From contig NZ_JBGCCJ010000001.1 in NCBI RefSeq assembly GCF_041262565.1, positions 4,092,001 through 4,156,000 on the forward strand: a DNA stretch of 64,000 nt. The letters run 5' to 3'. Each line of letters starts with the position of its first letter. Positions within the stretch are counted from its first letter, which is position 1. This DNA is from Leifsonia sp. EB41. Its GTDB lineage: Bacteria; Actinomycetota; Actinomycetes; Actinomycetales; Microbacteriaceae. Positions 11,214 to 61,732 of the stretch are shown here, piece by piece. The translations under genes and the position numbers were made by a program. A model generated the notes under the pieces. That model was not told where the DNA came from, did no database searches, and saw only the letters and a list, made by a program, of their open reading frames with translations.

Positions 11214-11252
11214 AGCCCGCTTCCCTTGATTTTCAAGGGAAGCGGGCTTTTT
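11214..11252 (+). terminator. Intrinsic terminator after tRNA-Glu, supplied by the element
   Basis: AGCCCGCTTCCCTTGA and its exact reverse complement form a 16-bp perfect stem with a TTT loop, followed by a T run. It is the terminator now used by tRNA-Glu. It belongs to the element, because the original chromosomal terminator lies beyond attR at 18393. Confidence 0.9.
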
Positions 11253-11254
11253 CC

Positions 11255-12397
11255 TTACCCGCCCGCCGGTGGCGAAAACCGGGTCTGTGGCAACACTTTG
11301 GCAACATTTGATTTCATAGCTGCGTCATCAAGTGCGACGGCAACAGCATCCAGGTCATCTTCGAAGAGGTCGGCGTAGACATCGAGGGTGATGCTCGCCG
11401 ACGCGTGGCCGAGCATCCGCTGGACCGCTTTGACGTTTGCGCCGGCGGATACAGCGAGGCTCGCTGCGGTGTGACGCAGTTCATGGGGAGTAAGCGATTC
11501 GAGCCCAATAGCGGCCGCCGCGGGATCGAACCAGCCGTTTCGGAACGTGTGATTCCGTAGCCAGATCTTCGTTCGACTGCCATAGAACACCGGATCGTCT
11601 CCGCTGCGGCCGATCGTCTGCGCCCTGAGCGCGCCGACCAAGAAGGCAGGAATGGGGATCGAGCGATGCTCGTAGTCCTTGGGCGGCTCGATGCGCTGGT
11701 AGCCCTTGTCGGCCACGACCGTCTGCTGGACCGCGAGTCGCTTCCGCGCGAAGTCGATGTCTCGCACCCTGAGTCCTGCTAGTTCGCCCCAGCGCAGCCC
11801 GCAGTACGCCAGTGTGAGCACGAGGACGTCGTATCCGTGTTGGGAGCCCTTGGAGCGGTCCCCAACGGCCTGAGCGAGCGCAGCGACCTGATCATGGGTG
11901 AGATATCGCTTGATCGCCCGTACGCGCTTCGGGAGTTTGAGCTTGACTGCGGGGTTGGCTGGAAGCCGTCCGTCGTCCACAGCGAGCTGCAGAGCCCCGC
12001 TGAGCACATTTACGACCTTGCGTATGGTCTCGGGGGAGCCGGGCAATTCCGCAGCCCACTCCTGTACGCGAAGCCGAGTCAGATTCCCGATCGGAATTCG
12101 TCCGAGGTCCGGCTCGATGTAGTTGGCGATGATCCCCTCGACCCGGGTCCGCGTCGTGGCGCGGAGGTCGGACCTGCTCGCGAGCCATCGACTCATCCAG
12201 TTCACAACGGTTGTCCGGCTCTTGGCGGGATCAACGTAACGCCCGGTGGCCTTATCCACCTCGACCGACGCGAGGAAGATCTGGGCGTCGAACTTGGTCC
12301 GGAACCCACGTTTCGATGTCTGCAGATGGTCGGGTCGTCGGTAGAGCACCCGATATCGCCGGCCTTTGGTTGTCTCGTACGGCTCAATGCTTCCCAC
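11255..12397 (-). CDS. int: Tyrosine-type site-specific integrase
   Basis: This 380-residue phage-type integrase would recombine the element's att site with the tRNA-Glu 3' end. The N-terminal part (about 1-60) has the arm-binding-like beta strands (GRRYRVLYRRPD), followed by a SAM-like core-binding domain (about 62-150) and the catalytic domain. Catalytic residues are visible: Arg202 (GLRWGEL), His305 and Arg308 (HELRH), His331 (GHAS) and nucleophile Tyr341 (DVYADL). The start chosen is a GTG (VGSIEPYE) preceded by AAGGGGG, matching where family members begin; the reading frame remains open upstream. The 3' end of the gene overlaps putative arm-type sites at 11288-11306. Confidence 0.93.
   Translation of the reverse strand: MGSIEPYETTKGRRYRVLYRRPDHLQTSKRGFRTKFDAQIFLASVEVDKATGRYVDPAKSRTTVVNWMSRWLASRSDLRATTRTRVEGIIANYIEPDLGRIPIGNLTRLRVQEWAAELPGSPETIRKVVNVLSGALQLAVDDGRLPANPAVKLKLPKRVRAIKRYLTHDQVAALAQAVGDRSKGSQHGYDVLVLTLAYCGLRWGELAGLRVRDIDFARKRLAVQQTVVADKGYQRIEPPKDYEHRSIPIPAFLVGALRAQTIGRSGDDPVFYGSRTKIWLRNHTFRNGWFDPAAAAIGLESLTPHELRHTAASLAVSAGANVKAVQRMLGHASASITLDVYADLFEDDLDAVAVALDDAAMKSNVAKVLPQTRFSPPAGG
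11288..11306 (+). repeat. Paired putative arm-type integrase sites, left end
   Basis: Two copies of TGGCAACA begin 11 bp apart (11288 and 11299), inside the 3' end of the integrase gene about 75 bp from the attL core. The same octamer, again paired at 11 bp, occurs near attR. One helical turn of spacing and presence at both ends suggest accessory binding sites for the integrase N-terminal domain. Confidence 0.55.
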
Positions 12398-12594
12398 GAC
12401 GCCCCCTTGGAAAAGACTGCACCGAGCCTCCGACAAAATCCGGGCGCTCCCAACGGTGGTGCGTAGTGTGTGAGCCGAAGGCCTTCTCAACTCATCGGTC
12501 CTCCATCTGACGAGGCCCCGTGTAATCGCCTGCGACACTCGGCGACCGTTTGCTGCCGGGAGGTGAGTCGGGGATCACCGTAGGATCAAGGCTC

Positions 12595-13203
12595 ATGTGG
12601 GCCTTGTCACCGCGACGACTATTCGTCTTTGCGGTCTCTTCGGGTGGTGTTGGAATCGCGCTTTTCTGCCTCACCGAGTTCGTAGATCCGTACGTAGCCG
12701 GGCCGCCGGCCTTGCGTGTGATCATTGAGGTTCTGTTTGCCGCAGGGATCAGGCTCTCGCAACTGGCGTTTGTTCTGGCGTTCGCGCTCGCCGCAGCGGG
12801 CACGCTTGCGCTCGGACTCGGTCCGGTTCTCTCCCGAGAGCGGGCACTCCCGCACAGCCCACAGGTGCATGGCCGAGGGGGGAGAGCGGTCAAACTACTC
12901 GCGGTCGGCGCGGCTGTTTCTGCTGGCATCTCGCTGCTAATCGATGGCTCGGCAGGCCCCACGTTCTTCGGGCAGACTTTTGCATTCGGCGGGGACTCCG
13001 GATGGTTGGGGGCAAGCGGTACCGGCCTTCCCGAAGGCCTGCTCGAGGTCGCCTACTACTCGAGCTACGTGTTCCTTGCCGCCTGCGCTCTGTTCGTGTG
13101 CATTGCGGCCACTATCGGCTCGCTTACCAGCCCTGCGCCAGACGGGAATGACCAGCCGGGGCCGTTGGCAGGATCCTTCGAACCGCGAGAGGCTGACGCA
13201 TGA
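12595..13203 (+). CDS. Four-helix membrane protein, first of a tandem pair
   Basis: The 202-residue protein begins MWALSPRRLFVFAVSSGG and has four hydrophobic segments: about 8-28, a long one at 42-78, 98-118 and 158-185. Short polar loops and a Pro/Glu-rich tail follow. No enzyme or transporter motif is visible. Layout and local sequence resemble the next gene (for example RLSQLAFVLAFALAAAGTLAL here and RLSFVCFLAFACAAVGLAIL there), so the two are likely diverged tandem duplicates. The ATG lies 8 bases after TAGGAT. An in-frame TTG start 45 bases upstream exists but is less likely. Its stop overlaps the next start (ATGA). Function unknown. Confidence 0.65.
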   Translation: MWALSPRRLFVFAVSSGGVGIALFCLTEFVDPYVAGPPALRVIIEVLFAAGIRLSQLAFVLAFALAAAGTLALGLGPVLSRERALPHSPQVHGRGGRAVKLLAVGAAVSAGISLLIDGSAGPTFFGQTFAFGGDSGWLGASGTGLPEGLLEVAYYSSYVFLAACALFVCIAATIGSLTSPAPDGNDQPGPLAGSFEPREADA

Positions 13204-13754
13204 CGCGAAGCAGCCGATCACAACGAGTCGTGATCGCCGCCGCAATCTCGGCGACGATATTTCTCGTGGCCTTCTTGCCGCCACTTGTGCCGTGGAACGA
13301 CTTGCCGCGTGATATCCGACCGGCAGTCTCATTAGCGTTGATCGCCGACATTTATCTCATCCGGCTGTCCTTCGTCTGCTTCCTCGCATTCGCCTGCGCC
13401 GCGGTTGGTTTGGCGATCCTTCGCCGTGCGCTTCCAGACGCGCTCGCTGTTTCGCGCCGCTTGGGACCCCCGACTGTTCGCCACCTTGTCGTTGCGGCCT
13501 CCATTTTGGCGGGAGCTTATGTTGCAGGTGATGTCACAGTCACCACGCTGCAACTCGGCACAGATTGGCTCTCATCTGGCGGGGCTGGGGTGTTCGCTTG
13601 GAGCGACTTCCCGCCGGGTCTCGCGGATGTACTCGGCGGTGTTTGCCGTCTCTGCGACTTCGCCGGTGGCGTTCTCCTTAGCGTGGCGTGCCTGCTTGGC
13701 TCGTTCCGACGGCCCGCCGCGGACGGCTCGGCCCGACTTGACGTCAGTCGCTAA
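13200..13754 (+). CDS. Four-helix membrane protein, second of a tandem pair
   Basis: The 184-residue protein has four predicted membrane segments (about 8-28, 45-75, 92-115 and 140-165) with basic ends. It starts inside the stop of the preceding gene (ATGA overlap), so the two are probably made together and may form a heteromeric membrane complex. Comparable spacing of helices and similar motifs (FPPGLADVLGGVCRLCDFAGGVL against LPEGLLEVAYYSSYVFLAACAL) point to common ancestry. Its 3' end overlaps the convergent HTH gene by 4 bases. No known family is recognised. Confidence 0.65.
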   Translation: MTRSSRSQRVVIAAAISATIFLVAFLPPLVPWNDLPRDIRPAVSLALIADIYLIRLSFVCFLAFACAAVGLAILRRALPDALAVSRRLGPPTVRHLVVAASILAGAYVAGDVTVTTLQLGTDWLSSGGAGVFAWSDFPPGLADVLGGVCRLCDFAGGVLLSVACLLGSFRRPAADGSARLDVSR

Positions 13755-14134
13755 GTCTCCGCCGATTCGTCTGGTCCAGACTTCCGCTTGGACAGCGCTT
13801 GCCGGCTGAGGCCTGTCCGGGCTGCAAGCGAGTTCCAGCTCTCGCCCAGCTCGCGAAGCTGGGCAATCAATTCGTCCCGCTCGAGAAGTGCCGAGTTCTG
13901 CTCGTCGCGGAGTCGATCGATGGTCCGCGAAACGTCGTGCAGGCGTTTGAGGGCGTCGGCGCGCGTGCCCCATTTGCCCCGCAGCTCCAAAATCGCGTCG
14001 GCGGCGTGCCGCTCTGCGGCCTCCCATTCGAGGTCTTCGGCGTGCCGGACTGCGGCGGCATCGTGCGCTTCACGTAGCCGCGCGTAGGACGCCTCGCGCC
14101 GCCTCGTTCTGGTTGATTTCCCCCGATTTGCCAT
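13751..14134 (-). CDS. Coiled-coil protein with C-terminal HTH-like motif
   Basis: About 127 residues starting MANRGKSTRTRRREASY, a strongly basic N-terminus. A long charged alpha-helical region (about 15-95, heptad-like, DVSRTIDRLRDEQNSALLE) follows, then a terminal segment WNSLAARTGLSRQALSKR that reads as a helix-turn-helix recognition element. It could be a DNA-binding regulator or an excisionase-like factor of the element. There is no known-family match I can name. No Shine-Dalgarno precedes the ATG. An upstream ATG ten codons earlier is possible. Confidence 0.6.
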   Translation of the reverse strand: MANRGKSTRTRRREASYARLREAHDAAAVRHAEDLEWEAAERHAADAILELRGKWGTRADALKRLHDVSRTIDRLRDEQNSALLERDELIAQLRELGESWNSLAARTGLSRQALSKRKSGPDESAET

Positions 14135-14457
14135 GCAACCGGGTTTACACGCGACCCCTGTCATTCACTGGGCCGTCGAAGAGGTCCACTTAAAGTGCCT
14201 GCGTGCATTCGCTTTGGCTTCTACGTCTCGGCCTTGCTCGTGTATCTCTCCTTGGCTTGTATCTCTGTTGATTATTCATCCCTCGGTCTTCTCTCGGTTC
14301 TGGCTTCTATTCATTGGTCTCGTCTATCGGCCTGTCTCCTCGTTGTCCTCCGCTCAACGCACCGCTCTCATTCCAGAGAATGATTTTGGCTCGAACCGCG
14401 AGCGCGCGCCGGGTCAATCCCAGTAGCGTGAACCGACTCGTTGGGGATGGAGAACAT
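14135..14457. other. Intergenic stretch, T/C-rich on the plus strand
   Basis: No convincing gene. The stretch is visibly AT- and pyrimidine-rich compared with the surroundings, with many TCTC, TCGTC and TTC runs. It separates the minus-strand HTH gene from the lipoprotein and should hold both promoters. The lipoprotein frame is open through its last 144 bases, but a ribosome site favours the later GTG. Confidence 0.4.
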
Positions 14458-15855
14458 GTGGAGAAGTGGCTCGGACGTCGTCGGGCTTCTGGCTCGACCA
14501 CCACGGTGAGGTCGAGTCTGGCGCGGTGGATTGTGGTTCCCGCTGCCGTCATGATCGGCGCGACCCTCGCAGGATGCACGAGTCTTCCGCTCGCAACAAC
14601 GCCGCCGACGGTCTCTGTCCTCTGGGACTCGAACAGTCCAGTCCCCTCAGGGGACACCGCACGCAGCGCCACGTTCAACGGTGTCGTCTGCCCACAGGAA
14701 GGCGACTGTGTCGCTTACGGAAGCGACACCACCGCCCACGAAGGCTATCGACCACTTCTGGTGAAGCGACGTGGTCACGCGTGGGCGCCGGAGACTGTTC
14801 CTCTGCCGGTCGGTGCCAAACCGGCAAGCGATTCGCTCTCCGGTGTCGCTACAGTCGGCTGCATTAATCGGGCGTGCCTCGCCGTCGCCGAGTTCCAGGA
14901 CGCCAAGCACGTGTGGCATTTCTCCTCGACGGGATTCGAGCGTGAGTCCGGTCCGGCTGTCGTGATTCCGGTCGCCGGGGCGGCCGAGGCGGCGGACGAG
15001 CTTGCTTCCGGGCCGGAGGAGCAAGGCGGGGTCGCGCTGTCCTGCTGGTCGACCACTGGCTGCATGGCGGCGATAAGCATCTACTTCGACGTCGGCGGTG
15101 AGTTCGAGAAGGACGCGTTTGAACTTGTCCGGTTCGACGGCGAGCGCTGGACGACAGTGCCGAGTCCCGAACTCGGTCTGCCGTCCGGCTATGGGTCGCA
15201 AGTGGACGAGCTCAGCTGCACGTCGCCGGCGTCCTGTGTGATCGTCGGGAGCGCCAGCAACGCGCTGGGTGATTCGCTGCACGCATGGTCGGCCGTGTCG
15301 GCTGGGGGTCGGTGGCGAGTGACGAAGGAGCCGGGGCTGCTGACGTTCGACGATCTCTCGTGCATCGACGCCGCCCCCTGCCAGGCGCTTGCTGAGAAGG
15401 ACGAGGGTAACGCCCTGGTGACGCTCGGTTCAGACGGGTCGACCTCCGTTCGTGATCTCCCTTCGGGGTCCCAGTTCCATGCGATGGGCTGTTCATCCCA
15501 ACTCTGTGCATTCAGCGGAGCGCCCGAGGACGGAGGCGGATACCTCGGCACAGGGACGCCCTGGGGGATGACGTCTGCGGACGCGGATCCCGGCGATAGG
15601 GCGCTGAAGCTCGGCAATCCTCAAACGGTCGCCTGCGCGTCAACGTCCCTTTGCGCGGCCGTAGGTGGATACGAGGGCAACTCTGTCGACGGGACTTCCT
15701 TTCCGCTAGTTGAGATCTATGCAGACAACTCATGGAAGGCGACGACCCCCGCATTTCCAACGGGGATCAAGAGTGGAACGTTGAACGGCGTGGCTTGTCA
15801 GTCCGTCCGCGACTGCGTGGCGATCGGACAAGCGAATGGATACGTGAGGCCGTAA
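14458..15855 (+). CDS. Lipoprotein with eight cysteine-pair repeats
   Basis: This predicted surface lipoprotein has 465 residues. A signal segment (hydrophobic WIVVPAAVMIGATLAGC) ends in a lipobox with Cys40 as lipid anchor. The mature part contains eight repeats, each with a C-x4/5-C pair followed by a small hydrophobic/Gly strand: pairs at 78/84, 135/140, 196/202, 254/260, 302/308, 345/350, 393/399 and 447/453. Typical versions are LSCTSPASCVIVG and VACQSVRDCVAIG. Spacing of about 43-61 residues suggests a beta-propeller-like fold with one disulfide per blade. The start is a GTG with GGAG 5 bases upstream; the frame is open further upstream. Probably extracytoplasmic; partner unknown. Confidence 0.75.
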   Translation: MEKWLGRRRASGSTTTVRSSLARWIVVPAAVMIGATLAGCTSLPLATTPPTVSVLWDSNSPVPSGDTARSATFNGVVCPQEGDCVAYGSDTTAHEGYRPLLVKRRGHAWAPETVPLPVGAKPASDSLSGVATVGCINRACLAVAEFQDAKHVWHFSSTGFERESGPAVVIPVAGAAEAADELASGPEEQGGVALSCWSTTGCMAAISIYFDVGGEFEKDAFELVRFDGERWTTVPSPELGLPSGYGSQVDELSCTSPASCVIVGSASNALGDSLHAWSAVSAGGRWRVTKEPGLLTFDDLSCIDAAPCQALAEKDEGNALVTLGSDGSTSVRDLPSGSQFHAMGCSSQLCAFSGAPEDGGGYLGTGTPWGMTSADADPGDRALKLGNPQTVACASTSLCAAVGGYEGNSVDGTSFPLVEIYADNSWKATTPAFPTGIKSGTLNGVACQSVRDCVAIGQANGYVRP

Positions 15856-15996
15856 CCCTGATCGCCGGCGACCTGCACCATCTCCCGGTGCTCGGTCTGT
15901 CCCTCCGTTCGCGATGTCTACGCGATTCGTGATGAGAGAACATCGGGCGAGGCTTTGAACCCCGTTCGCTGACGCGGAAGCTGTCATCATCGTCGA

Positions 15997-16848
15997 ATGG
16001 ACTGGTTTGTTGATCCCGCCCGCGGCCGGTGGCTTCAAGGCCGCATTCCACAACTCGGAATGATGGTGCCCTCAGGCATGCTGGCCTATGCGCGCATCCT
16101 GCACCCGGTCTTCGCATTCCGCGAAGCTGACGAGACCATCGAAATGTGGCGGTGGGAGGACGTAGCAGCTAGGAACGACGTGGTTATGGACGCCACGAGC
16201 GAGTGGTCGGACATCACTGCGGGCGGTGCGAAGGAGGAGTGGCCGGATGGATGGTCTGTCGGGTGTCCGATTGATGGGCAGATCGACCCGGGCTTCCTTG
16301 CATCCATCGTGCCGACGTTGGCTGGGCATACGTCCCGCCCCGACGACATCACGTTGGGAGTCTGGGAAGGGTGGGGCTTTGGCGGATCGGGCACAACGCT
16401 GTACCGAACGACGTGGGACGACGACGATGCGCCGACCGACCCCGTTCCGGACCCGATGGCTGCGGAGCGGATGGCGACCGACCCTCGTCTGATCGAGCTG
16501 GATGAGTTCGGCCGCTCGGCGTTTTCGCGATATCAGCGAACTGGAATGGTTCCGCAGTTCAGCCGGCCGCTCCTCGAGCTACCCGATCGGAGATACGTGC
16601 TCGGTTCGACGACGTTGACTTCGCTAGCGGATCCGGAGTGGGTCTACGCGTCGGGGCTCGGTTGGGTTCCCGGCGGCATGGGCGGGACGATGCCGCAGCT
16701 GGTCTGGCCTGCTGACGAAGCCTGGTGCCTGTCGATCGAGGTAGATGCGCCCTACACAGTGGTCGCTGGCTCGGCGGAACTCGTTCGCGCTCTCCTCACC
16801 GCGCCGGGCGTTGAAGGGCACGCCATTCGCGAACCTGACTATCCCTGA
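15997..16848 (+). CDS. Hypothetical protein, 283 residues
   Basis: A soluble acidic, Trp-rich protein starting MDWFVDPARGRWLQGR and ending with a segment MPQLVWPADEAWCLSIEVDAPYTVVAGSAELVRALL. I have seen this kind of closing segment in uncharacterised actinobacterial proteins but cannot attach a function. There is no signal peptide, membrane helix or nucleotide motif. It lies in the element cargo just before the convergent barstar-like gene. A role as an immunity or sensing protein is speculation based on that neighbour. Confidence 0.6.
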   Translation: MDWFVDPARGRWLQGRIPQLGMMVPSGMLAYARILHPVFAFREADETIEMWRWEDVAARNDVVMDATSEWSDITAGGAKEEWPDGWSVGCPIDGQIDPGFLASIVPTLAGHTSRPDDITLGVWEGWGFGGSGTTLYRTTWDDDDAPTDPVPDPMAAERMATDPRLIELDEFGRSAFSRYQRTGMVPQFSRPLLELPDRRYVLGSTTLTSLADPEWVYASGLGWVPGGMGGTMPQLVWPADEAWCLSIEVDAPYTVVAGSAELVRALLTAPGVEGHAIREPDYP

Positions 16849-16905
16849 AGTGATGGTGTCGGACCTATTGGGCGTCTGGAATCGACATGCTCGGCGCTTC
16901 GATTG

Positions 16906-17430
16906 TTATTGATCCAGTCGGTCGGCGGTGCGCCACTCGCGCGGATTCCACTCCGGCGTGTAGCCGCCGATGGGACCTGGTTCTAGCAACGGATCATCTG
17001 AGCGGACCAAGCACAGAACCCGGTTGCCGAGCAACGCACCCCGCAAAGCGGCACCGTTGATGACCAGAATGGTGACCGCGAGGTCTGGCATCGCTGAATG
17101 GAAGTGATCGAAATTGTCGACCACAATGACCAAACCCGTTTCGTGCTCTGCCCATCCGTAGTCGAGGTCGGCGACGTCGCCGAAACAGTCGTCCAACGCG
17201 TTGAGGTTTCGTCCGTAGTAGTCCGGAAACTGTAGCGCCGTCGAGAACGACTGGTGCAGCGCGCTTTCGTCAGTCCACGATCCGGCGTCCAGTCGGACGA
17301 TTCGATAGCCAGCCGCTTGGAGGGTCCAGATTGCGTCGTCCAGGATGTTCCGCGATCGAAACTTCGAGACGAAGCCGTTCTGCACCAGATTGAATCCGGG
17401 GTCCTGGTTGTCCGTGTTCCATACCGCCAC
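16906..17430 (-). CDS. Barstar-like ribonuclease inhibitor/immunity protein
   Basis: The protein has 174 residues. The barstar signature is clear at about residues 71-83 (YYGRNLNALDDCF), preceded by the helix-strand unit of the family (IVRLDAGSWTDESALHQSFSTALQF) and followed by the VIVVDNFDHF strand. Barstar proteins bind and block barnase-type RNases or RNase toxins in the cytoplasm. No barnase-like gene lies in the element, so the target must be elsewhere or exogenous. The start GTG lies 7 bases after TACGTT, so a leaderless mRNA is likely. An ATG 17 codons upstream would place the start before that box. Confidence 0.8.
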   Translation of the reverse strand: MAVWNTDNQDPGFNLVQNGFVSKFRSRNILDDAIWTLQAAGYRIVRLDAGSWTDESALHQSFSTALQFPDYYGRNLNALDDCFGDVADLDYGWAEHETGLVIVVDNFDHFHSAMPDLAVTILVINGAALRGALLGNRVLCLVRSDDPLLEPGPIGGYTPEWNPREWRTADRLDQ

Positions 17431-17657
17431 GTGAAGAAACGTAGCGGTCGAACGGTCCGACTTCCGGTCCGCCCCGCCCAAGGGATACTGGCGCGCTGAG
17501 AGATCGAGTCAAGGGTGCGGCTCCGCTGCATCGCGCAGCGACGCGCAGCGCCCTTGACACGGCCTCTCAACTCGCCATCATCGGGCGTTGGGGCGGACCC
17601 ACCCGACGATCTCAACTCGGGAGTCGCAGCCCGCTTCGGGGAGCCGGCACCGCCAAT
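17431..17657. other. Intergenic stretch with a large inverted repeat
   Basis: No gene is supported here. Its main content is the inverted repeat at 17497-17569, described separately. The rest shows no other recognisable signal. Confidence 0.4.
17497..17569. repeat. 73-bp interrupted inverted repeat
   Basis: TGAGAG, a 5-base gap, GTCAAGGG and a partial GC arm are mirrored by CCCTTGAC, a 5-base gap and CTCTCA. The outer gaps are equal in length (atcga and acggc), so the whole can fold as a long hairpin with a symmetric internal loop. It lies between two minus-strand cargo genes and may be a terminator, a structured RNA or the ends of a small element. Confidence 0.6.
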
Positions 17658-18113
17658 TCACCACGGTGTCGGGCGCCACTCGACGACGAGCTGCTTCCAA
17701 TAGCCTGCGCACGAGGCTTCGTCGTCGCATTCGTCGTAGGGGCTGCCCGTGACCGAGATCACCGCATCCCCTGGCGGGAAGGAGGCCGGAACGGTGATGT
17801 GCGCCTCGAAACGGCCGTCCGGCGCCACCTCGACGCGTTGAGGCACTGTTCGCACGTCCCGATGCTGCAGCACGACTTGGTAAGTGTGAGCCGGCGAGTA
17901 GGCGAGGCGGCACGCGGCGGCGTCACTGGAGAGCACCACCTCGTCCCCTGGATGCGCGACGCCCGGCTCCAGGTGCAACGGTGCGGGCAGGCACGCCATC
18001 GGGAGTGGAATGATGCCGGTCGACTGAGCATGTGCCACTAACGCGACGGCGCCAATCGCTGCGCCAGCCGTCAACACGGTCACCGCAGTGATGACCCATC
18101 GTCGTCGTTGCAT
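17658..18113 (-). CDS. Secreted, membrane-anchored hypothetical protein
   Basis: About 151 residues starting MQRRRWVITAVTVLTAGAAIG: a basic N-terminus and one hydrophobic helix, then an extracytoplasmic domain of about 115 residues. That domain has phrases such as HPGDEVVLSSDAAACRLAYS and DGRFEAHITVPASFPPGDAVISVTG, typical of an immunoglobulin-like beta-sandwich, and several cysteines. The start is uncertain: the frame is open for 44 codons upstream and no ribosome site is visible. It is the last cargo gene before attR. Function unknown. Confidence 0.6.
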   Translation of the reverse strand: MQRRRWVITAVTVLTAGAAIGAVALVAHAQSTGIIPLPMACLPAPLHLEPGVAHPGDEVVLSSDAAACRLAYSPAHTYQVVLQHRDVRTVPQRVEVAPDGRFEAHITVPASFPPGDAVISVTGSPYDECDDEASCAGYWKQLVVEWRPTPW

Positions 18114-18220
18114 GACGACATCGTGGCCGACGACGGGCTTCGGCGCGAGCAACGAATACGTAAGCGGCCGTTCGTCACGTGCAACCTTGCGCGAACTTAC
18201 GCGGGGTACACCATGGGGAG

Positions 18221-18239
18221 TGACAACAAAATGGCAACA
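18221..18239 (+). repeat. Paired putative arm-type integrase sites, right end
   Basis: TGACAACA (18221) and TGGCAACA (18232) begin 11 bp apart, about 103 bp before the attR core. They match the pair at 11288-11306 in sequence, strand and spacing, as expected for integrase arm sites flanking the core in the circular form. Confidence 0.55.
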
Positions 18240-18341
18240 AACCAAATGAATCTCGTGCAGTTATCGTGATCTCCGGAGATCTCGAATTCCGCCATTTCAT
18301 TGGGATTGCGGGCCAAACCGCGCAGGTATGGTGCGTTCCTT

Positions 18342-18390
18342 TCGCCCTCTCACGGCGGTAACGCGGGTTCAAATCCCGCTGGGGTCACCA
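18342..18390 (+). repeat. attR: 49-bp direct repeat of the tRNA-Glu 3' part
   Basis: Identical to 11164-11212. It keeps the displaced original 3' part of the tRNA from the anticodon stem to CCA but lacks the acceptor 5' strand and D-arm, so it is not a functional tRNA. It marks the right end of the element. Confidence 0.92.
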
Positions 18391-18392
18391 AC

Positions 18393-18432
18393 AGCCCGCC
18401 TCCCCGGAAACACTGGGGAGGCGGGCTTTTTT
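18393..18432 (+). terminator. Original chromosomal terminator of tRNA-Glu
   Basis: AGCCCGCCTCCCC and GGGGAGGCGGGCT form a 13-bp perfect stem with a 9-base loop and a run of T residues. It directly follows the attR copy, so it was the terminator of tRNA-Glu before insertion. It also faces the end of the minus-strand toxin gene. Confidence 0.88.
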
Positions 18433-18455
18433 CATGTGCCGATGACGGTACGGTG

Positions 18456-19181
18456 CTACGCATCCCAGGTCGCCGCAGCGAGCCTCCGAAGTCCGTTTCC
18501 GTCATCGATGCTGACCGCCAGTGGGTCCGTGATCGCGGCGGAGTAGGCCATGAACAGTTTGTTGCGCTCTTTGCGTCGGAGTCCGTCCCCGACGCGATCG
18601 GAGATTCGGATCATCGAGCAGAGCACGGCGAAGTCCTGTAGGTGCCGCTGACGCAACGAATCGTTGACGAGGCCATATGCATACGCCTTGGCGATCAGTG
18701 CGCCTTGCAAGGCCGGGCGGAAGATCGTCGCGGCTTGGCCCTGCAGCGAGACCTCGAACGGCTCGGCGCGGTGGAGCACATTCTGCGCGCCGGGAGTCTC
18801 CAGAGTCGTGCCGCCGCGGATCCCGACCCGCTTCGCCCGCAGGCCGATGCCTTCGGGGAGCAGAATGTCGATCTGGCCGCGGTCCTGGTTCACCCAGCGA
18901 TGCTGGTGACCCTGCCAGTCTCGGCCGTCCGGCTCGAATCCCGAGTCGACCAGAGCCTGAGTGAACTGCATCATTATGTCCGGATGCGCCCGGATGTCGA
19001 GCACAGCGTCACCGTCGTCGGTGGGGCGTACCGGCTCCACCTCGCGCTCCCAGCACCACAACTGGACCATCTGGCCGCCGACAAGGCACCATCCGCTCGG
19101 AACGCGACGCGCCACTGCGATGATCCCGCGCCATGAGGCCTCTTGCCTCGGAGTCATCGCCGGGAGTTCTAGCGCGGCCAC
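18456..19181 (-). CDS. AbiEii-like nucleotidyltransferase, putative toxin
   Basis: The 241-residue protein carries the nucleotidyltransferase pattern of AbiEii/MenA-type toxins: a glycine pair (CLVGGQMVQLWC) followed by an acidic motif (VRPTDDGDAVLDI) and a later strand with QIDILLPEG. The C-terminal half is helical, with a Lys/Tyr motif ALIAKAYAYGL. Such enzymes are known to modify tRNA or act in abortive infection. The start is a GTG 13 bases inside the upstream gene, with AGAGG ahead of it, so the two are coupled. Toxin activity is inferred, not shown. Confidence 0.65.
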   Translation of the reverse strand: MAALELPAMTPRQEASWRGIIAVARRVPSGWCLVGGQMVQLWCWEREVEPVRPTDDGDAVLDIRAHPDIMMQFTQALVDSGFEPDGRDWQGHQHRWVNQDRGQIDILLPEGIGLRAKRVGIRGGTTLETPGAQNVLHRAEPFEVSLQGQAATIFRPALQGALIAKAYAYGLVNDSLRQRHLQDFAVLCSMIRISDRVGDGLRRKERNKLFMAYSAAITDPLAVSIDDGNGLRRLAAATWDA

Positions 19182-19822
19182 TGAACGGCCTCTAGGAGTT
19201 CACGGGCGCGACCGTCTTCGCGAGGGCGGTTCCAGTCGATCAGGTCCGCGATCACGAATCCCACAGGGATGGGCGCGGCGGGCAGCTGCTCGACCACGTG
19301 GAGGTGGACGTTCGGCGCATCAGACTCGATGAGGAGGTTGTCGCGAAGGAATCCATCGAGCGCGGAAGCAGCGACGTAGCCCTCGAACTCGCGAGCCGCC
19401 GACAGGCCGGCCCGGGCGTCGCTGATGCCCGATGCGATGGCTCGTCGGTCGGAGGAGACGTCCGCAATGTCGGCGGGGTTGGCGGCCACATCCACTACCC
19501 GGATCTGCCGAGAACGCAACCACGAATGCAACAGGCCCAGGGGGGACGGATCGCTTCGAAGGCGTTCAACGTAGCGACCGAGGAAGTAGCGCTCCTGCGA
19601 GTCGAGTTCGGCCGGTTCGCTGGACATCGCAGCGATGAGCAGGCGGGCCATCCTTGGGCTCAACGGGCGGCTGATCGCCGGCCGCTGGTTGACCTCCAGC
19701 TGATCGATCGCCCAGGAGTGGCCGATGCGCTTCGCCTTGACCTGCCCGGAGTTGATGAGGGCGAGCGCGCGCTGCCGCGAGACCCCGCGGGCCTCGGCGA
19801 ATTCGGACACGCTCAACTGCAT
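19169..19822 (-). CDS. HTH-containing putative antitoxin partner
   Basis: The 217-residue protein starts with a winged/MerR-like helix-turn-helix (MQLSVSEFAEARGVSRQRAL, then ALINSGQVKAKRIGHSWAID), followed by a segment probably involved in oligomerisation or toxin binding. The upstream position, the 13-base overlap with the nucleotidyltransferase and the DNA-binding domain fit an autoregulating AbiEi-type antitoxin. The C-terminal half is not clearly homologous to known AbiEi domains, so this may be a divergent or distinct pair. Expression is from a near-consensus promoter whose -10 ends 6 bases before the ATG. Confidence 0.65.
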   Translation of the reverse strand: MQLSVSEFAEARGVSRQRALALINSGQVKAKRIGHSWAIDQLEVNQRPAISRPLSPRMARLLIAAMSSEPAELDSQERYFLGRYVERLRSDPSPLGLLHSWLRSRQIRVVDVAANPADIADVSSDRRAIASGISDARAGLSAAREFEGYVAASALDGFLRDNLLIESDAPNVHLHVVEQLPAAPIPVGFVIADLIDWNRPREDGRARELLEAVQWPR

Positions 19823-19858
19823 TGAACAACTCTAGTCGAACGACAATAGAAGTTCAAT
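19821..19858 (-). promoter_or_regulatory. Leaderless promoter with overlapping operator for the toxin-antitoxin pair
   Basis: On the minus strand TTGAAC (19857-19852), an exact 17-base spacer and TAGAGT (19834-19829) are followed by 6 bases and the ATG. The inverted repeat ATTGAAC/GTTCAAT (19821-19827 and 19852-19858) covers the -35 box at one end and the transcript start at the other. This is an obvious site for repression by the antitoxin HTH. Confidence 0.8.
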
Positions 19859-19931
19859 GACGATGGTTCAGTATCCCAGCAGGGTCCTGAAAGGGAATAC
19901 GCAGCGAAATCCACGGATATCGGCTTTCGGT

Positions 19932-19941
19932 CAAACGTTTG
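19932..19941. promoter_or_regulatory. Palindromic operator upstream of the TetR gene
   Basis: CAAACGTTTG is a perfect 10-bp palindrome about 77 bases before the TetR-family start, near a weak -10 (TTAACT, 19955-19960). Palindromes of this type are common TetR-family operators, so autoregulation is likely. Confidence 0.5.
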
Positions 19942-20017
19942 CATCATTCAACCTTTAACTCGGTCGCTCACGGAGGGTGTGTGCGGCGGAGATGCGAACC
20001 GACCTGGGGGTCCGAGT

Positions 20018-20938
20018 ATGACGTTGTCCAGTCCCGTGATCGACGAGCGGAGCCCCGACGAAGTCGCTCGGGGTCGGGCATTTCCGATCGAGGTGCTGGT
20101 CAACGGGCGAACGCTTCGGGCGACCCGCTCGATGGGGGAGATCTTCGTCCGGGCCGCGCGCGTCAACGCCACGAGCGCGGGATGCCCGCTGACCGTGCTC
20201 TCCCACTCGGACGGGGTCGAATTGCTGCACATCACCGGCGCCACGCCCATCGTGGTCCGGGACCTCGAAGCCTCCGCTTCGCCGACGACCGGGAACGGAC
20301 CCACCGTGAACGACCTCCCGGAGCGAATCGTCTCGGCCGCCTACGGTCTCTTCGCGCACCTCGCCGTCCACGAAGTCACCCGCGAGCAGGTGCTGGAGGC
20401 CGCCGCTGTCACGGCGTCGGAGCTCGACGGCGAGTTCGCGTCGCTCGAGGCTCTGGCGGAGGCGTGCCTGAAGCGGCGCGAGCGCGATTGGACCATCGGT
20501 CTGGTCCGCGCCGGCGTTCGGGCGCGCTCCGACCGGCCCGAGGAGCAGCTGCTGGCGATCTTCGATGTGTTCGACGAATGGTTCCACCGCAGCGACTACG
20601 AGGCGTGCATGTTCGTCAACGTCCTGCTCGAGATGGGCAAGGACCACCCTCTCGGTCGCGCAAGCGTCGAGCACCTCACGTACATCCGCGGCCTGGTGTC
20701 GGGACTCGCGACGGAGGCCGGCCTGGCCGAGCCGGAGGAGTTCGCCTACTCGTGGCACATCCTGATGAAAGGCGCGATCATCAACGCCGTGGAGGGGGAC
20801 GGAGCCGCGGCGAGGCGGGCGCAGTCGATGGGGCGCGCACTCATCGCCCGGCATCGGCTGGCGGCCCAGGAGGCGCAGAACGAGGAGGCGCACGAAGCAG
20901 CGGCGCACCAGCTCGACCCGCGCTGGGCGGTCGGCTGA
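20018..20938 (+). CDS. TetR/AcrR family regulator with an extra N-terminal domain
   Basis: The 306-residue protein has a TetR-type DNA-binding region only after about 95 residues (LPERIVSAAYGLFAHLAVHE then VTREQVLEAAAVTASELDGE), followed by a helical ligand-binding domain (about 160-290). The N-terminal extra domain (AFPIEVLVNGRTLRATRSMG ... GVELLHITGATPIVVRD) looks like a small beta-rich module of unknown role, whereas ordinary TetR proteins begin with the HTH. The start ATG (MTLSSPV) has a purine-rich stretch upstream; an in-frame ATG 13 codons earlier is weaker. Ligand and targets are unknown; the nearby palindrome suggests autoregulation. Confidence 0.8.
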   Translation: MTLSSPVIDERSPDEVARGRAFPIEVLVNGRTLRATRSMGEIFVRAARVNATSAGCPLTVLSHSDGVELLHITGATPIVVRDLEASASPTTGNGPTVNDLPERIVSAAYGLFAHLAVHEVTREQVLEAAAVTASELDGEFASLEALAEACLKRRERDWTIGLVRAGVRARSDRPEEQLLAIFDVFDEWFHRSDYEACMFVNVLLEMGKDHPLGRASVEHLTYIRGLVSGLATEAGLAEPEEFAYSWHILMKGAIINAVEGDGAAARRAQSMGRALIARHRLAAQEAQNEEAHEAAAHQLDPRWAVG

Positions 20939-21142
20939 GCGACGACGGCTAGAACCACCTGTCGACGCTTGTAGCCGCGGCGGAGCGAACTTAAACTGGG
21001 TGGAGCGTCCACGAGACGCCATGGTTCTCTCTCTCCCCATCTGGTCGCCGGTGCCGACCGTTCGGCGTCCTGCGGGATCCTCCATTCGCGCCCACCATCG
21101 CCCTCGCGACGAGACGCTCGAGTCTCTGGCAGATGATTCGTC

Positions 21143-21499
21143 ATGCACACCACACTGAAGGCGGAGGCAGGAACTCCCCGCCACTACACACTCGCTCGGT
21201 CAGGGCGAACGCCACCTCCTGTCGCCGGCGGCGCGCCCGGGACGCCTCTCACCCACGCGAGTCGGATCCGCCTGATCGGTGCGGACGACACCATCGTGAG
21301 CGTCATCCTCGACGTGAGCCGGATCCGCGCGGAGACCGACGAGATCAGGCTCGGCGGCTCGATCATCGGATACGTCACCCGCGCTGAGCACTGCTTCATC
21401 GCGTCCGCGGGCCGGAGGCACGGATCCGCGCACACAGCCGGAACCTTCGACTTGTGGGACCAAGCCGCGGCCGAGTTGCTCCTCCAGCGGCACGATTGA
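21143..21499 (+). CDS. Hypothetical protein, up to 118 residues
   Basis: The coding character is best from about residue 35 onward (ASRIRLIGADDTIVSVILDVSRIR, then GGSIIGYVTRAEHCFIASAGRRH), a compact alpha/beta sequence ending DLWDQAAAELL. The N-terminal third may not be translated. There is no clear ribosome site. No family is recognised. It lies between the TetR gene and a metallo-hydrolase. Confidence 0.5.
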   Translation: MHTTLKAEAGTPRHYTLARSGRTPPPVAGGAPGTPLTHASRIRLIGADDTIVSVILDVSRIRAETDEIRLGGSIIGYVTRAEHCFIASAGRRHGSAHTAGTFDLWDQAAAELLLQRHD

Positions 21500-21557
21500 G
21501 TTCGAGCGCCGCCGACCTCATCACGCTCCGACGGTCGTCTCTGCTACCGTCGCCACC

Positions 21558-24516: not shown

Positions 24517-25993
24517 ATGACGACGCAGCACAGTCCGCTGACCCTGGCGGAGAAGGTGTGGCGAGACCACCTGGTCGTGAAGGGTGAGGACGGCACGCCC
24601 GACCTCATCTACATCGACCTCCACCTGGTCCACGAAGTGACAAGCCCGCAGGCGTTCGACGGCCTGCGCATGGCCGGGCGCCCGGTCCGCCGCCCCGACC
24701 TCACGATCGCGACCGAGGACCACAACACGCCGACCATCGGCATCGACCGGCCGATCGCCGACCTGACCAGCCGCACGCAGATCGAGACGCTGCGCCGCAA
24801 CGCCGAGGAGTTCGGCGTCCGGCTGCACTCGCTCGGCGACATCGAGCAGGGCATCGTGCACGTCGTCGGCCCGCAGCTCGGCCTCACCATGCCGGGCATC
24901 ACGGTCGTCTGCGGCGACTCGCACACCTCCACGCACGGTGCGTTCGGCGCGATGGCGTTCGGGATCGGCACCAGCGAGGTCGAGCACGTGCTCGCCACGC
25001 AGACCCTGCCGCTCAAGGCGTTCAAGACCATGGCCATCACCGTCGAGGGCGAGCTGCGCCCCGGCGTGACGGCGAAGGACATCATCCTCGCGGTCATCGC
25101 GAAGATCGGCACAGGCGGCGGCCAGGGCTACGTGCTCGAGTACCGCGGGAGCGCCATCCGCGCCCTCTCGATGGAGGGCCGCATGACGATCTGCAACATG
25201 TCGATCGAGGCCGGCGCCCGCGCCGGCATGGTCGCGCCGGACGAGACCACCTACGCCTACCTGAAGGGTCGTCCGCACGCGCCGGAGGGCGCCGACTGGG
25301 ACGAAGCCGTCGCCTACTGGGACACGCTCGCCACGGACGACGACGCGGTCTTCGACGCCGAGGTCTACCTCGACGCCGCCGCGATCGAGCCGTTCGTGAC
25401 CTGGGGCACCAACCCCGGCCAGGGCGTCTCGCTGAGCGAGTCCGTCCCGGACCCGGCGGCGATCGCCGAGCCCAACGCTCGCGCCGCCGCCGAGCGCGCG
25501 CTGGAGTACATGGACCTGGGCCCCGGGGACGCCGATGAAGAGCATCCCGGTCGACGCGGTGTTCATGGGCTCCTGCACCAACAGCCGCATCGAGGACCTC
25601 CGGGCCTTCGCCTCCGTCATCAAGGGTCAGAAGAAGGCCGACAACGTTCGCGTGATGGTCGTCCCCGGCAGCGCCCGCGTGCGCATCGAGGCCGAGGCCG
25701 AGGGCATCGACAAGATCGTCGAGGAGTTCGGCGCCGAGTGGCGGTTCGCGGGCTGCTCGATGTGTCTGGGCATGAACCCCGACCAGCTCGCGCCGGGGGA
25801 GCGCTGCGCCTCCACCTCGAACCGCAACTTCGAGGGCCGGCAGGGCAAGGGCGGCCGCACCCACCTGGTGTCGCCGCTGGTCGCGGCGGCCACGGCCATC
25901 CGCGGCACACTGTCCAGCCCGTGGGACCTGGAGCACGACGACGCCCCATCTCCCGATGGATCAGTGCCGTCCGGAGAGAAGGTGGGCGCCTGA
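24517..25993 (+). pseudogene. leuC: 3-isopropylmalate dehydratase large subunit, frameshifted
   Basis: LeuC isomerises 2-isopropylmalate to 3-isopropylmalate using a 4Fe-4S cluster. The first frame runs normally from [20 protein letters not shown] to YMDLGPG (bases 24517-25527). The continuation is one frame over, from [20 protein letters not shown] at 25535 to the stop at 25991-25993. Removing one G from CCCCGGGG (25521-25528) restores [15 protein letters not shown]. All three cluster cysteines (CTNSR and CSMC) lie after the shift, so the N-terminal fragment alone cannot work. AAGGAG precedes the start. The rest shows no decay, so the cause may be a homopolymer sequencing error, a very recent mutation or programmed slippage. 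Confidence 0.9.
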
Positions 25994-58150: not shown

Positions 58151-58843
58151 CTAGGAGGTCACGCCGAGCGGCGCGAGCCGGTCTTCGATGACCTTCGCGA
58201 CGGCGCGCTCGCCCGCCGCGTTCGGGTGGATCCCGTCCGCCTGCACCAGCTCGGGATGCCCCGCCAGCGGGTAGCCGATGTCAAGGAACGTCCCGCCGAC
58301 GCCGGTCACGGCCTTCTCGACGATCCCGTTGACGGTCGCCACGGTCGGCGGCGGCGTGTCCGCGCCCCAGACCGTCGTGATGCCGATGATGCGCGCCCGC
58401 GGGAACGTGTCGCGCAGTTCACCCAGCAGTTCGTCCGCCGAGGAGGCCACGAGAGCGGCGTCCTGCGTGCGGTCGTTGCGGGTGGCCGCGATCAGGATGT
58501 AGTCGGGGTGCAGGCCGAGTGCAGTGGCGACCTGCTCGCGGTAGGTGTCGCCGTTCCAGCCCGGCTTGACGAAGCCGGAGCCGGAGACCGCGAGGTCGGT
58601 GAGCGTCCAGCCGTGCTGCGCCGCCACCAGCGCGGGCCAGGCTTGATCCGGGCGCACGCCCTTGCCGAACGCAATGGAGTCCCCGATGGCGATGACCTGC
58701 GGCTTCGAGCGCTCCGCTGGGGCCGCCACAGCCGTGCCGTCGGCGGCGACCGGGCGCGCGGCGACGACCGAGGAGCAGCCGGCGAGAGCGGCCGCGGCGA
58801 GAGCGAGCGCGACGACGGCGATCAGGCGGGGACGGGTGGACAC
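58151..58843 (-). CDS. SGNH/GDSL hydrolase lipoprotein (copy 1)
   Basis: This 230-residue secreted lipoprotein has signal MSTRPRLIAVVALALAAAAL and lipobox LAGC (Cys23). The mature part is an SGNH hydrolase: block I IAIGDSIAFGKG with the nucleophile Ser, a strand with SGSGFVKPG (block II Gly), IAATRNDRTQD (block III Asn) and block V DGIHPN with Asp and His. It likely hydrolyses an ester in the envelope. It is the first of three tandem paralogues on this strand, the last in transcription order. Confidence 0.9.
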   Translation of the reverse strand: MSTRPRLIAVVALALAAAALAGCSSVVAARPVAADGTAVAAPAERSKPQVIAIGDSIAFGKGVRPDQAWPALVAAQHGWTLTDLAVSGSGFVKPGWNGDTYREQVATALGLHPDYILIAATRNDRTQDAALVASSADELLGELRDTFPRARIIGITTVWGADTPPPTVATVNGIVEKAVTGVGGTFLDIGYPLAGHPELVQADGIHPNAAGERAVAKVIEDRLAPLGVTS

Positions 58844-58920
58844 GGTGTGAGGCTAGACCGCGCTGACTGACAGATCGCTGTGCATCCCGTCCGGGCGTGT
58901 CGGAGTGTGCGGGCGCAGGC

Positions 58921-59637
58921 CTAGCTGCGAGCGGGTCCCGGCTCGATCCGCGCCTTCGCGATGGCGTCTGCGACGGTCCTCCCGAGCAGTTCCTGGCCCG
59001 CGCTGGTCGGGTGGATGCCGTCCGCCTGCAGGAGGGTCGGCTGCCCGAGGAACGTCTGGCCCAGCGGGAGCCAGTGGCCGCCGACGCCGAGGACCGCGCT
59101 CTTCAGGGCCTCGTCGACGACCGTGGCCGTACGGCCCGCAGCTGTCGCTCCCCAGACCGACCCGATCCCGATGATCGTGGTGTGCGGGAGTGCGGTGGAC
59201 AGCCGGTCGATCGCCGCCGCGGTGTCGCGCGTGACCGTCCCGGGAGCGGAGGCGGCGGTAGCCGCGTCGTTGCGCGTCGCGGCGACGATGACGACCTGCG
59301 GGCGCAGCCGGATGGCAGCGCTCACCTGGTCGTCGAAGTCGTGGGTGTTCACGCCGGGCGTGGTGAAGCCGGCGCCGGCTTCGCCGAGGTCCGTCAGGTC
59401 CTAGCCGAGGCGGGTCGCAGCGATGAGCGGCCAGGCGTCGTCGGCGGGCACACCCAGGCCGATCGCGATGGAGTCGCCGATCGCCGCGGCCGTGGGCTGC
59501 GCCTCCGTCGCCGAGGCAGACGCGGTGGACGGCGCGGACGGGGTGAGTGTCGTGCAGCCGGTCAGAGCGAGGCCCGCGAGGACGAGGACGGCCGCGACGC
59601 GGCGCACTCCACCCGCGCGAGGTGTCGCTTGCGTCAC
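58921..59637 (-). pseudogene. SGNH/GDSL hydrolase lipoprotein (copy 2), interrupted by an in-frame TAG
   Basis: The same frame is open from GTG 59637 (signal peptide RRVAAVLVLAGLALTGC with its lipobox) to the stop at 58921, except for TAG at codon 79 (59401-59403). In copy 1 the aligned residue is Trp (GWTLTDL against G-stop-DLTDL here) and copy 3 has W at the equivalent place, so TGG to TAG is the simplest cause. The nucleophile (AIGDSIAIG) lies before the stop and the DGIHPTSAG block after it. The rest shows no decay. The start overlaps the end of copy 3 by 4 bases. Recent nonsense mutation, sequencing error or readthrough are possible. Confidence 0.85.
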
Positions 59638-60308
59638 ACGATCCCGTCGAGCTTCGACAGCACGACCGACGCGATCGCCTGCTGGCCTTCGAGGGTGGGA
59701 TGCTCGCCGTCGTCCTGGACGAGGCCGAGCTGGCCGCGGTACGGCTGGCCGAGGTCGATCCACTTGCCGCCCGCCGCGGTCACGGCCTGCTTCAGTGCGT
59801 CGTTCAAGGGAGCGAGGTCGTTGTCGCTGGCCTCCCCGGTGAGAGCGTTGTACCCGATCAGGTGGGCTTTCGGCAGGGCGTCGCTCAGCCGCTCGACCGC
59901 GGCCGCCATCGCCTTGGCGACGGCGGAATTGTCCTGGCCGAGGTCGTTGTCGGAGGCGCCGATCAGCACCACGTTCGCCTTCGCGGCGATGGCCTGGTCG
60001 ATCTGGCCGTTGAAATCGGCGTTGGTGGCCCCGACGGCGACGAAGCCGGCCCCCGGCTCGCTGAAGTTCTCCAGCCCCCAGCGCCGATCGACCGCGACGA
60101 GCGCCGGCCAGGCCTCGAACGGCTCCAGACCCATGCCCGACTCGATCGAGTCCCCGACGATCGCGACCACCGGGTGCTTGCCGGCCGGGACCGCGGCGCC
60201 GACGGCGACCTGCGAGGAGGCGGACGCGCATCCGCTCAGGGCGACCGTGCCGAGCAGCAGCGCTGCGAGCGCCGTGGCGACGGTGGCGAGAGGTCGGTGG
60301 CCGAACAT
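59634..60308 (-). CDS. SGNH/GDSL hydrolase lipoprotein (copy 3)
   Basis: This 224-residue lipoprotein has signal MFGHRPLATVATALAALLLG and lipobox LSGC (Cys27). Catalytic blocks: VAIVGDSIESGMG, EPGAGFVAVG, LIGASDNDLG and a closing DDGEHPTLEG, in which the usual DGxH is DGEH. It is the most upstream of the three paralogues and probably the first gene of their operon. The earlier in-frame ATG (14 codons upstream) is less likely because it would precede the signal peptide. Confidence 0.88.
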   Translation of the reverse strand: MFGHRPLATVATALAALLLGTVALSGCASASSQVAVGAAVPAGKHPVVAIVGDSIESGMGLEPFEAWPALVAVDRRWGLENFSEPGAGFVAVGATNADFNGQIDQAIAAKANVVLIGASDNDLGQDNSAVAKAMAAAVERLSDALPKAHLIGYNALTGEASDNDLAPLNDALKQAVTAAGGKWIDLGQPYRGQLGLVQDDGEHPTLEGQQAIASVVLSKLDGIV

Positions 60309-60352
60309 GCCAACGAGCCTAAATGACGAGTCTATGGATGGACTATGCACGG

Positions 60353-61528
60353 CTATGAGCCCCCTGTGCCCGGGTGGCCGGCGTCCCGCGCCGTCCGGTC
60401 CAGCCCGCTGCGGAGCTCGTGCGTGAGCGAGCTGACCACGGCCTGCAGGCTGCCGCCGTTGGCCTCCGCGACGGCGAGCTGGCGCTGGTAGCTGGCGCCG
60501 GTGGCGAGCACGTCGGCGACGGTCGCGAGCTCGGCGGAGCAGCCCAGCCGTTCCGCGGTGTCACCGAGCTCGTCCACGAGCTGGAGGAGCTGCTCTCGCA
60601 CCAGGCGCTCGGTGCCGTCCGGCGCGACGATGATCTCGGCGTCCAGCCCGTAGCGGGCCGCGCGCCACTTGTTCTCTCGCACGAACCACGGCTGGAGGGT
60701 GACCGGCTCGACGCCCTCGTCCAGGTCGCCGGACATCCGGTCGGTCAGGCAGTGGATGAGTGCGCCGACTGCGCCCACTTCGTCCGCGGTCGAGAGCCCG
60801 TCGCACGCGCGCATCTCGACGGTTCCCCAGCGGGGCGATGGTCGGATGTCCCAGCGCACTTCACTATGGTCCTCCACGACGCCGGTCGTCACCAGGTCCT
60901 GCACGTACTCCTCGTAGTTCGCCCACGAGCCGAACTGCCACGGCAGCCCCGCGGTCGGCAGCTGCTGGAACATGAGCGCGCGGTTGGAGGCGTACCCGGT
61001 GCGGGCGCCCGCCCAGAACGGGCTCGACGCGCTGAGCGCCTGGAGGTGCGGGTAGTAGGTGAGCAGACCGTTGACGATCGGCAGCGCCTTGTCGCGGTCG
61101 TCGATGCCGACGTGCACATGGATGCCCCAGATCATCATCTGCCTGCCCCACCACTGGGTGCGGTCCAGCAGCCGGTCGTAGCGCTCGTTCGGCGTGATCT
61201 TCTGGTCGTACCACTGGGCGAAGGGGTGCGTGCCTGCGCACATCAGCTCAACGCCCAGCGGGTCGGTGACCTCGCGGGTCAGCGCGACCAGCTCCTGCAG
61301 GTCGGTGATGGCGGCCGGGACGCTGTGGTGCACCCGGCTGACCAGTTCGATGGTGTTCAGGAGCAGCTCGTGGGTGATCTGCGGGTGCTCCCGGCCGTCC
61401 GGGGTGCCGAGCTCGCGGAGCACCTCGTCGGCGATGTGCACCAGGTCGCCTGTCGAGCCGTCGACCAGCGCCAGCTCCCACTCGATCCCGACGGTGGAGC
61501 GCTCCGACTCTGCGAATTGGATCTGCAT
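60353..61528 (-). CDS. GCS2/YbdK-family carboxylate-amine (glutamate-cysteine-like) ligase
   Basis: This 391-residue ATP-dependent ligase of the YbdK family has weak glutamate-cysteine ligase activity in E. coli, but in mycothiol-using actinobacteria its real substrate is uncertain. Motifs: FAESERSTVGIEWELALVDG, ITHELLLNTIELVS, MCAGTHPFAQWYDQKITPNE, WGIHVHVGI, TAGLPWQFGSWANYEEYVQD and WGTVEMRACDG. The chosen start is ATG MQIQFAESERS. An in-frame ATG ten codons earlier (61558) exists, nearer to a possible -10 (TATTCT); neither has a good ribosome site. Confidence 0.88.
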   Translation of the reverse strand: MQIQFAESERSTVGIEWELALVDGSTGDLVHIADEVLRELGTPDGREHPQITHELLLNTIELVSRVHHSVPAAITDLQELVALTREVTDPLGVELMCAGTHPFAQWYDQKITPNERYDRLLDRTQWWGRQMMIWGIHVHVGIDDRDKALPIVNGLLTYYPHLQALSASSPFWAGARTGYASNRALMFQQLPTAGLPWQFGSWANYEEYVQDLVTTGVVEDHSEVRWDIRPSPRWGTVEMRACDGLSTADEVGAVGALIHCLTDRMSGDLDEGVEPVTLQPWFVRENKWRAARYGLDAEIIVAPDGTERLVREQLLQLVDELGDTAERLGCSAELATVADVLATGASYQRQLAVAEANGGSLQAVVSSLTHELRSGLDRTARDAGHPGTGGS

Positions 61529-61732
61529 CGCTGTGACCCCGTCCGTCCGATTGTTCATTGGGCGCGCTTTTCTGACAGAATATCTAGTTGAGTTCACCGT
61601 GCCCGACCCTCTATCCGGTACGGCGGACGAACAATAGACCTCCTGCCGCGTGTGCCCCCACGCCCACGGCAGTCAGTTCGACAACGAATCCACCGGAACC
61701 CTGCGGGTTCCGGACGTCAACACAGGAGAATT
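61529..61732. other. Divergent promoter region and rpsP leader
   Basis: TTGAGT (61588-61593) with TATCCG about 18 bases later is a possible plus-strand promoter for rpsP. TATTCT on the minus strand serves the ligase. The remaining plus-strand stretch is an untranslated leader of roughly 100 bases with two hairpins, listed separately. Confidence 0.4.
61643..61713 (+). promoter_or_regulatory. Two-hairpin leader upstream of rpsP
   Basis: CTGCCG...CGGCAG (61643-61672) forms one stem. CCGGAACCC-TGC-GGGTTCCGG (61693-61713) forms a perfect 9-bp stem with a 3-base loop ending about 12 bases before the ribosome site. Ribosomal-protein leaders often autoregulate; no such leader for S16 is known to me, so this is inference. 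Confidence 0.5.

Follow-up and report, generated by a model that had tools for sequence, protein, structure and literature searches.

Copy 2 of an old Leifsonia trio of SGNH/GDSL lipoprotein genes is probably a recent nonsense pseudogene

The middle gene (copy 2) of three SGNH/GDSL hydrolase lipoprotein genes in the soil-type bacterium Leifsonia sp. EB41 is probably a recent nonsense pseudogene, the dispensable member of an old, genus-wide trio of lipoprotein esterases. The genome comprises 4.16 Mb in one contig; the window, to which positions refer unless genome coordinates are specified, is a 64,000-nucleotide stretch of it. The three genes are arranged head to tail at 58151-60308 (minus strand), and the GTG start of copy 2 overlaps the stop codon of copy 1 by 4 nt. 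Each copy has a lipobox: LSGC, LTGC and LAGC. Paper searches found nothing on this gene cluster in Leifsonia. The parts of the locus are the following.

60353-61597: carboxylate-amine/glutamate-cysteine ligase-like gene flanking the triplet (named from a reading of the sequence)
59634-60308, minus strand: copy 1, SGNH/GDSL hydrolase lipoprotein, intact, 224 aa, ATG start, PF13472 score 52 bits
58921-59637, minus strand: copy 2, gene for an SGNH/GDSL hydrolase lipoprotein, 238 codons, GTG start, frame broken by TAG at codon 79, PF13472 score 61 bits when read through
59401-59403, minus strand: the premature TAG in copy 2 (CTA on the plus strand), TGG/Trp in all other copy-2 orthologues
58151-58843, minus strand: copy 3, SGNH/GDSL hydrolase lipoprotein, intact, 230 aa, GTG start, PF13472 score 73 bits
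56556-58124: signal recognition particle (SRP) gene ffh, convergent, flanking the triplet (named from a reading of the sequence)

All three copies score above the curated cut-off of PF13472 (Lipase_GDSL_2), which is 32.9 bits, copy 2 having been scored with its TAG taken as Trp. The catalytic blocks GDSI, Asn-Asp (RND/DND) and DGxHP (DGIHP/DGEHP) occur in each of the three, and in the copy-2 alignment D55, S56, N123, D124, D206 and H209 are invariant. By family match and motif content, the three copies are SGNH/GDSL hydrolases and predicted enzymes; the difference from other PF13472 enzymes is that copy 2 is interrupted, and a complete enzyme is not predicted from it. Modeled with the TAG as Trp, copy 2 resembles the TesA/EstA-type SGNH structures 3hp4, 4jgg and 5tic, in a model of modest confidence (pLDDT 75, low at residues 85-98). 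The top NCBIfam match of all three copies is the Rv0518 family GDSL lipase (NF045548), nearly full length, but at 50, 62 and 36 bits they fall far below its equivalog cut-off of 300 bits and hence are distant relatives of that family, not members. The coordinates, the shared strand and the PF13472 scores bear out the preliminary description of the locus as three SGNH lipoproteins in tandem, and the lipobox, GDSI and D-G-x-H-P blocks that it assigned to them are present in every copy.

The frame of copy 2 contains exactly one stop ahead of its natural end, the TAG at codon 79, and a six-frame search of the genome flagged the same lone TAG. The stop sits after the GDSI serine and before the D-x-x-H motif. 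Codon 79 is TGG in 14 of the 14 other copy-2 orthologues examined, and TAG in this genome only; Trp79 is invariant across 14 aligned copy-2 sequences, and Trp occupies this place in copies 1 and 3 as well. Because Trp79 is invariant, and TGG is found in every other orthologue inspected, the stop at this codon is beyond chance. Further decay within copy 2 was searched for, and none was found. The initial reading of this locus was thus accurate in its details: a copy 2 intact but for codon 79, Trp in its two neighbors, the catalytic Ser upstream of the stop and the Asp and His downstream of it, and no other decay. As in a nonsense pseudogene, the stop stands where every orthologue has a sense codon, and it removes essential parts of the domain.

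The age of the stop can be approached through the selection that copy 2 has experienced. Since the split from the relative G006, copy 2 of EB41 has evolved with a dN/dS of 0.260 (95% bootstrap interval 0.15-0.47), as against 0.275 for the intact G006 copy; downstream of the stop the corresponding values are 0.268 and 0.306. The similarity of the own-branch ratio to that of an intact copy implies normal constraint for most of the branch, so that the stop is either recent or not real; the power of the comparison is limited, the interval allowing, by estimate, at most about one-quarter of the branch to have been neutral. A very recent mutation, the first of three origins that had been proposed for the TAG, fits these ratios best.

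Of the three paralogues, copy 2 is under the weakest constraint, is lost most often and is the expendable one. Between orthologues of close relatives, dN/dS lies at 0.17-0.33 for copy 2; for copy 1 the range is 0.06-0.15, for copy 3 about 0.05-0.21. Some part of the locus is present in all 28 genomes of the genus that were searched; copies 3, 1 and 2 are retained in 26, 24 and 15 of them, respectively, and in the remaining 13 copy 2 is absent or vestigial. In the nearest relative, G007 (~92-93% DNA identity over the flanks), copy 2 has been cleanly deleted, and in the close relative G023 it is down to ~115 bp of its 3' end. It is this combination of fastest evolution, absence from 13 of 28 genomes, deletion in G007 and a mere remnant in G023 that marks copy 2 as expendable.

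The quality of the assembly bears directly on whether the TAG exists. For this check, G007 served as the reference for 364 kb of the EB41 genome, and G006 as a second one for the nearest 164 kb. The 364-kb scan was noisy on account of antisense frames and was rerun with a GC-frame filter. Three frameshifts stand out in the 364 kb, each an additional G in a G/C-rich context. One is in the only leuC gene of the genome (window 24517-25993, plus strand), with +1 G near 25520 relative to both G006 and G007; the C-terminal part with its GCSMCLG motif is in another frame, as a separate 152-aa ORF (25535-25993), and the shifted frame continues into leuD as a fused 691-aa ORF. The second splits the only ilvE of the genome (genome coordinates approximately 4,072,357-4,073,513), again by +1 G relative to both relatives, at genome position ~4,073,020. 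The third splits a UvrD/AddA-like helicase gene (genome coordinates about 3,908,098-3,911,404) that is 1103 aa long in G007, the only relative with which it was compared. Over these 364 kb, G007 carries some two frameshifts of a similar kind. Without functional LeuC and IlvE, the strain would need branched-chain amino acids for growth; residual homopolymer errors explain the data just as well or better, and the three +1-G frameshifts suggest residual consensus errors in the assembly. For users of this genome, the choice between auxotrophy and residual assembly errors at leuC and ilvE may matter more than the stop in copy 2.

When the ORFs of the window were compared from stop to stop with those of two relatives, many apparent stops emerged; a check by codon position placed nearly all of them upstream of real starts or in antisense frames; the one at window position 43517, for example, is antisense to mutM and rnc. 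Separately, about 10 kb of the window (approximately 11250-21540) finds nothing to align with at the corresponding location of the two closest relatives, and is a possible island.

The main rival to a real pseudogene is a sequencing or assembly error, with copy 2 intact and functional in the cell, a reading that we regard as unlikely. Sequencing error had already been put forward as an origin of the TAG, and it keeps a place here, made more plausible by the frameshifts in the single-copy leuC and ilvE. A copy-2 frame that is otherwise perfect, with constraint undiminished past the stop, is what such an error would leave; other single-base errors are probable in the assembly, and three G insertions in G/C-rich context (leuC, ilvE and the helicase gene) are what a systematic error would give. 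However, the TAG, a substitution that lies in no homopolymer (GCTAGGA), is of another type than the suspected errors, which are homopolymer indels, and the other conserved genes in the GC-frame-filtered 364 kb of the EB41 genome rarely carry clear nonsense substitutions. An error would, moreover, have had to strike by coincidence precisely the paralogue that close relatives have deleted. Given the type of change, a substitution away from any homopolymer, and the deletion of this very gene by close relatives, a real nonsense mutation is clearly favored over an error, by a weighting that was judged and not computed.

It is far less likely that the TAG is read through, or followed by reinitiation, to provide low-level full-length copy 2, for example as a form of regulation. 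What speaks for readthrough is purifying selection (dN/dS < 1) persisting past the stop: Belinky et al. argue that many bacterial in-frame stops do not denote pseudogenes, since dN/dS stays low, and bacterial genes of this kind have been taken as cases of frequent readthrough (PMC7918605). Copy 2 resembles the genes of that study in having a single stop in a conserved gene with dN/dS well below 1. It differs from them in that the stop occurs in one genome and that sister species have deleted the gene, a pattern indicative of loss rather than of conserved readthrough. The TAG is not conserved in relatives, every other orthologue having TGG, and with a stop confined to a single genome the low dN/dS is the legacy of a long intact past rather than evidence of readthrough. 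Nor is there a suppressor: none of the 46 tRNA genes of the genome has a CUA anticodon and the RF1 gene prfA is present, which rules out a suppressor tRNA or loss of RF1. TAG is an ordinary terminator in this organism, ending 52 of 223 genes (~23%; genes chosen by GC frame within 364 kb), 18 of them as TAG-G, the same context as the codon-79 stop; copies 2 and 3 themselves end naturally in TAG. As for reinitiation, the 143-aa ORF after the stop (58921-59352) has neither the nucleophile Ser nor a signal peptide. Readthrough, as proposed in the preliminary description, therefore finds no support. Marginally less probable still is a variant in which the TAG is real and natural UAG readthrough continues to make copy 2 at a low level in a lineage where the gene is otherwise disappearing.

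The history of the trio was followed in a protein tree of 65 proteins from 28 loci, in which copies 1, 2 and 3 form three separate clades with supports of 100/100, 98/93 and 100/99, respectively. The existence of these separate clades shows that the triplet predates the genus and did not arise by recent amplification. The suggestion that the tandem arrangement reflects a recent, adaptive multiplication of an envelope esterase gene, which appeals to three genes in tandem on one strand with a lipoprotein signal and catalytic blocks in each, can be dismissed, since each paralogue is one genus-wide clade whose duplication predates the genus, the paralogue tree has no sign of recent copying or conversion, and close relatives have a falling, not a rising, copy number.

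The probable consequences of the nonsense mutation for the locus can be sketched. Translation of copy 2, coupled to that of copy 1, would begin at the GTG at 59637 and end at the TAG, generating a 78-residue stub with the signal peptide, the lipobox Cys and the GDSI Ser. The stub would lack the Asn-Asp and DGxHP blocks, without which it cannot be an enzyme, and no activity is expected of it. Its intact neighbors have upstream elements that may bear on their own expression:

60316-60321, minus strand: -10-like hexamer TAGGCT, 7 nt before the copy-1 ATG; TAGGCT in 6 of 7 close relatives, diverged in G023
58850-58855, minus strand: -10-like hexamer TAGCCT (TACCCT in relatives), 6 nt before the copy-3 GTG; kept in 7 of 7 close relatives

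The second of these belongs to a conserved non-coding block ahead of copy 3 (58844-58900, minus strand), of the form CTGTCAGTC...TACCCT, 6 nt, GTG, found in all seven close relatives. Both hexamers fit TANNNT at 6-7 nt ahead of the start codon, and their conservation suggests that copies 1 and 3 have putative leaderless promoters of their own. With such a promoter in front of copy 3, the stop in copy 2 need not silence it; copies 1 and 3, with intact frames and conserved -10-like elements, would be little affected. The stop itself, the conserved Trp, the history of the paralogues, the repeated loss of copy 2 in relatives and the lack of suppressor machinery are all shown by the data; that the TAG exists in the living cell, that its 78-residue product has no activity and that the hexamers serve as promoters are inferences.

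The stop in copy 2 is most likely ordinary gene decay of a redundant paralogue, not a new mechanism. Its value is mainly that of a worked case: what is at first sight a striking lone stop becomes, on comparison across the genus, an old trio whose middle gene has been repeatedly lost, by a stop codon in EB41 and by deletion in its close relatives.
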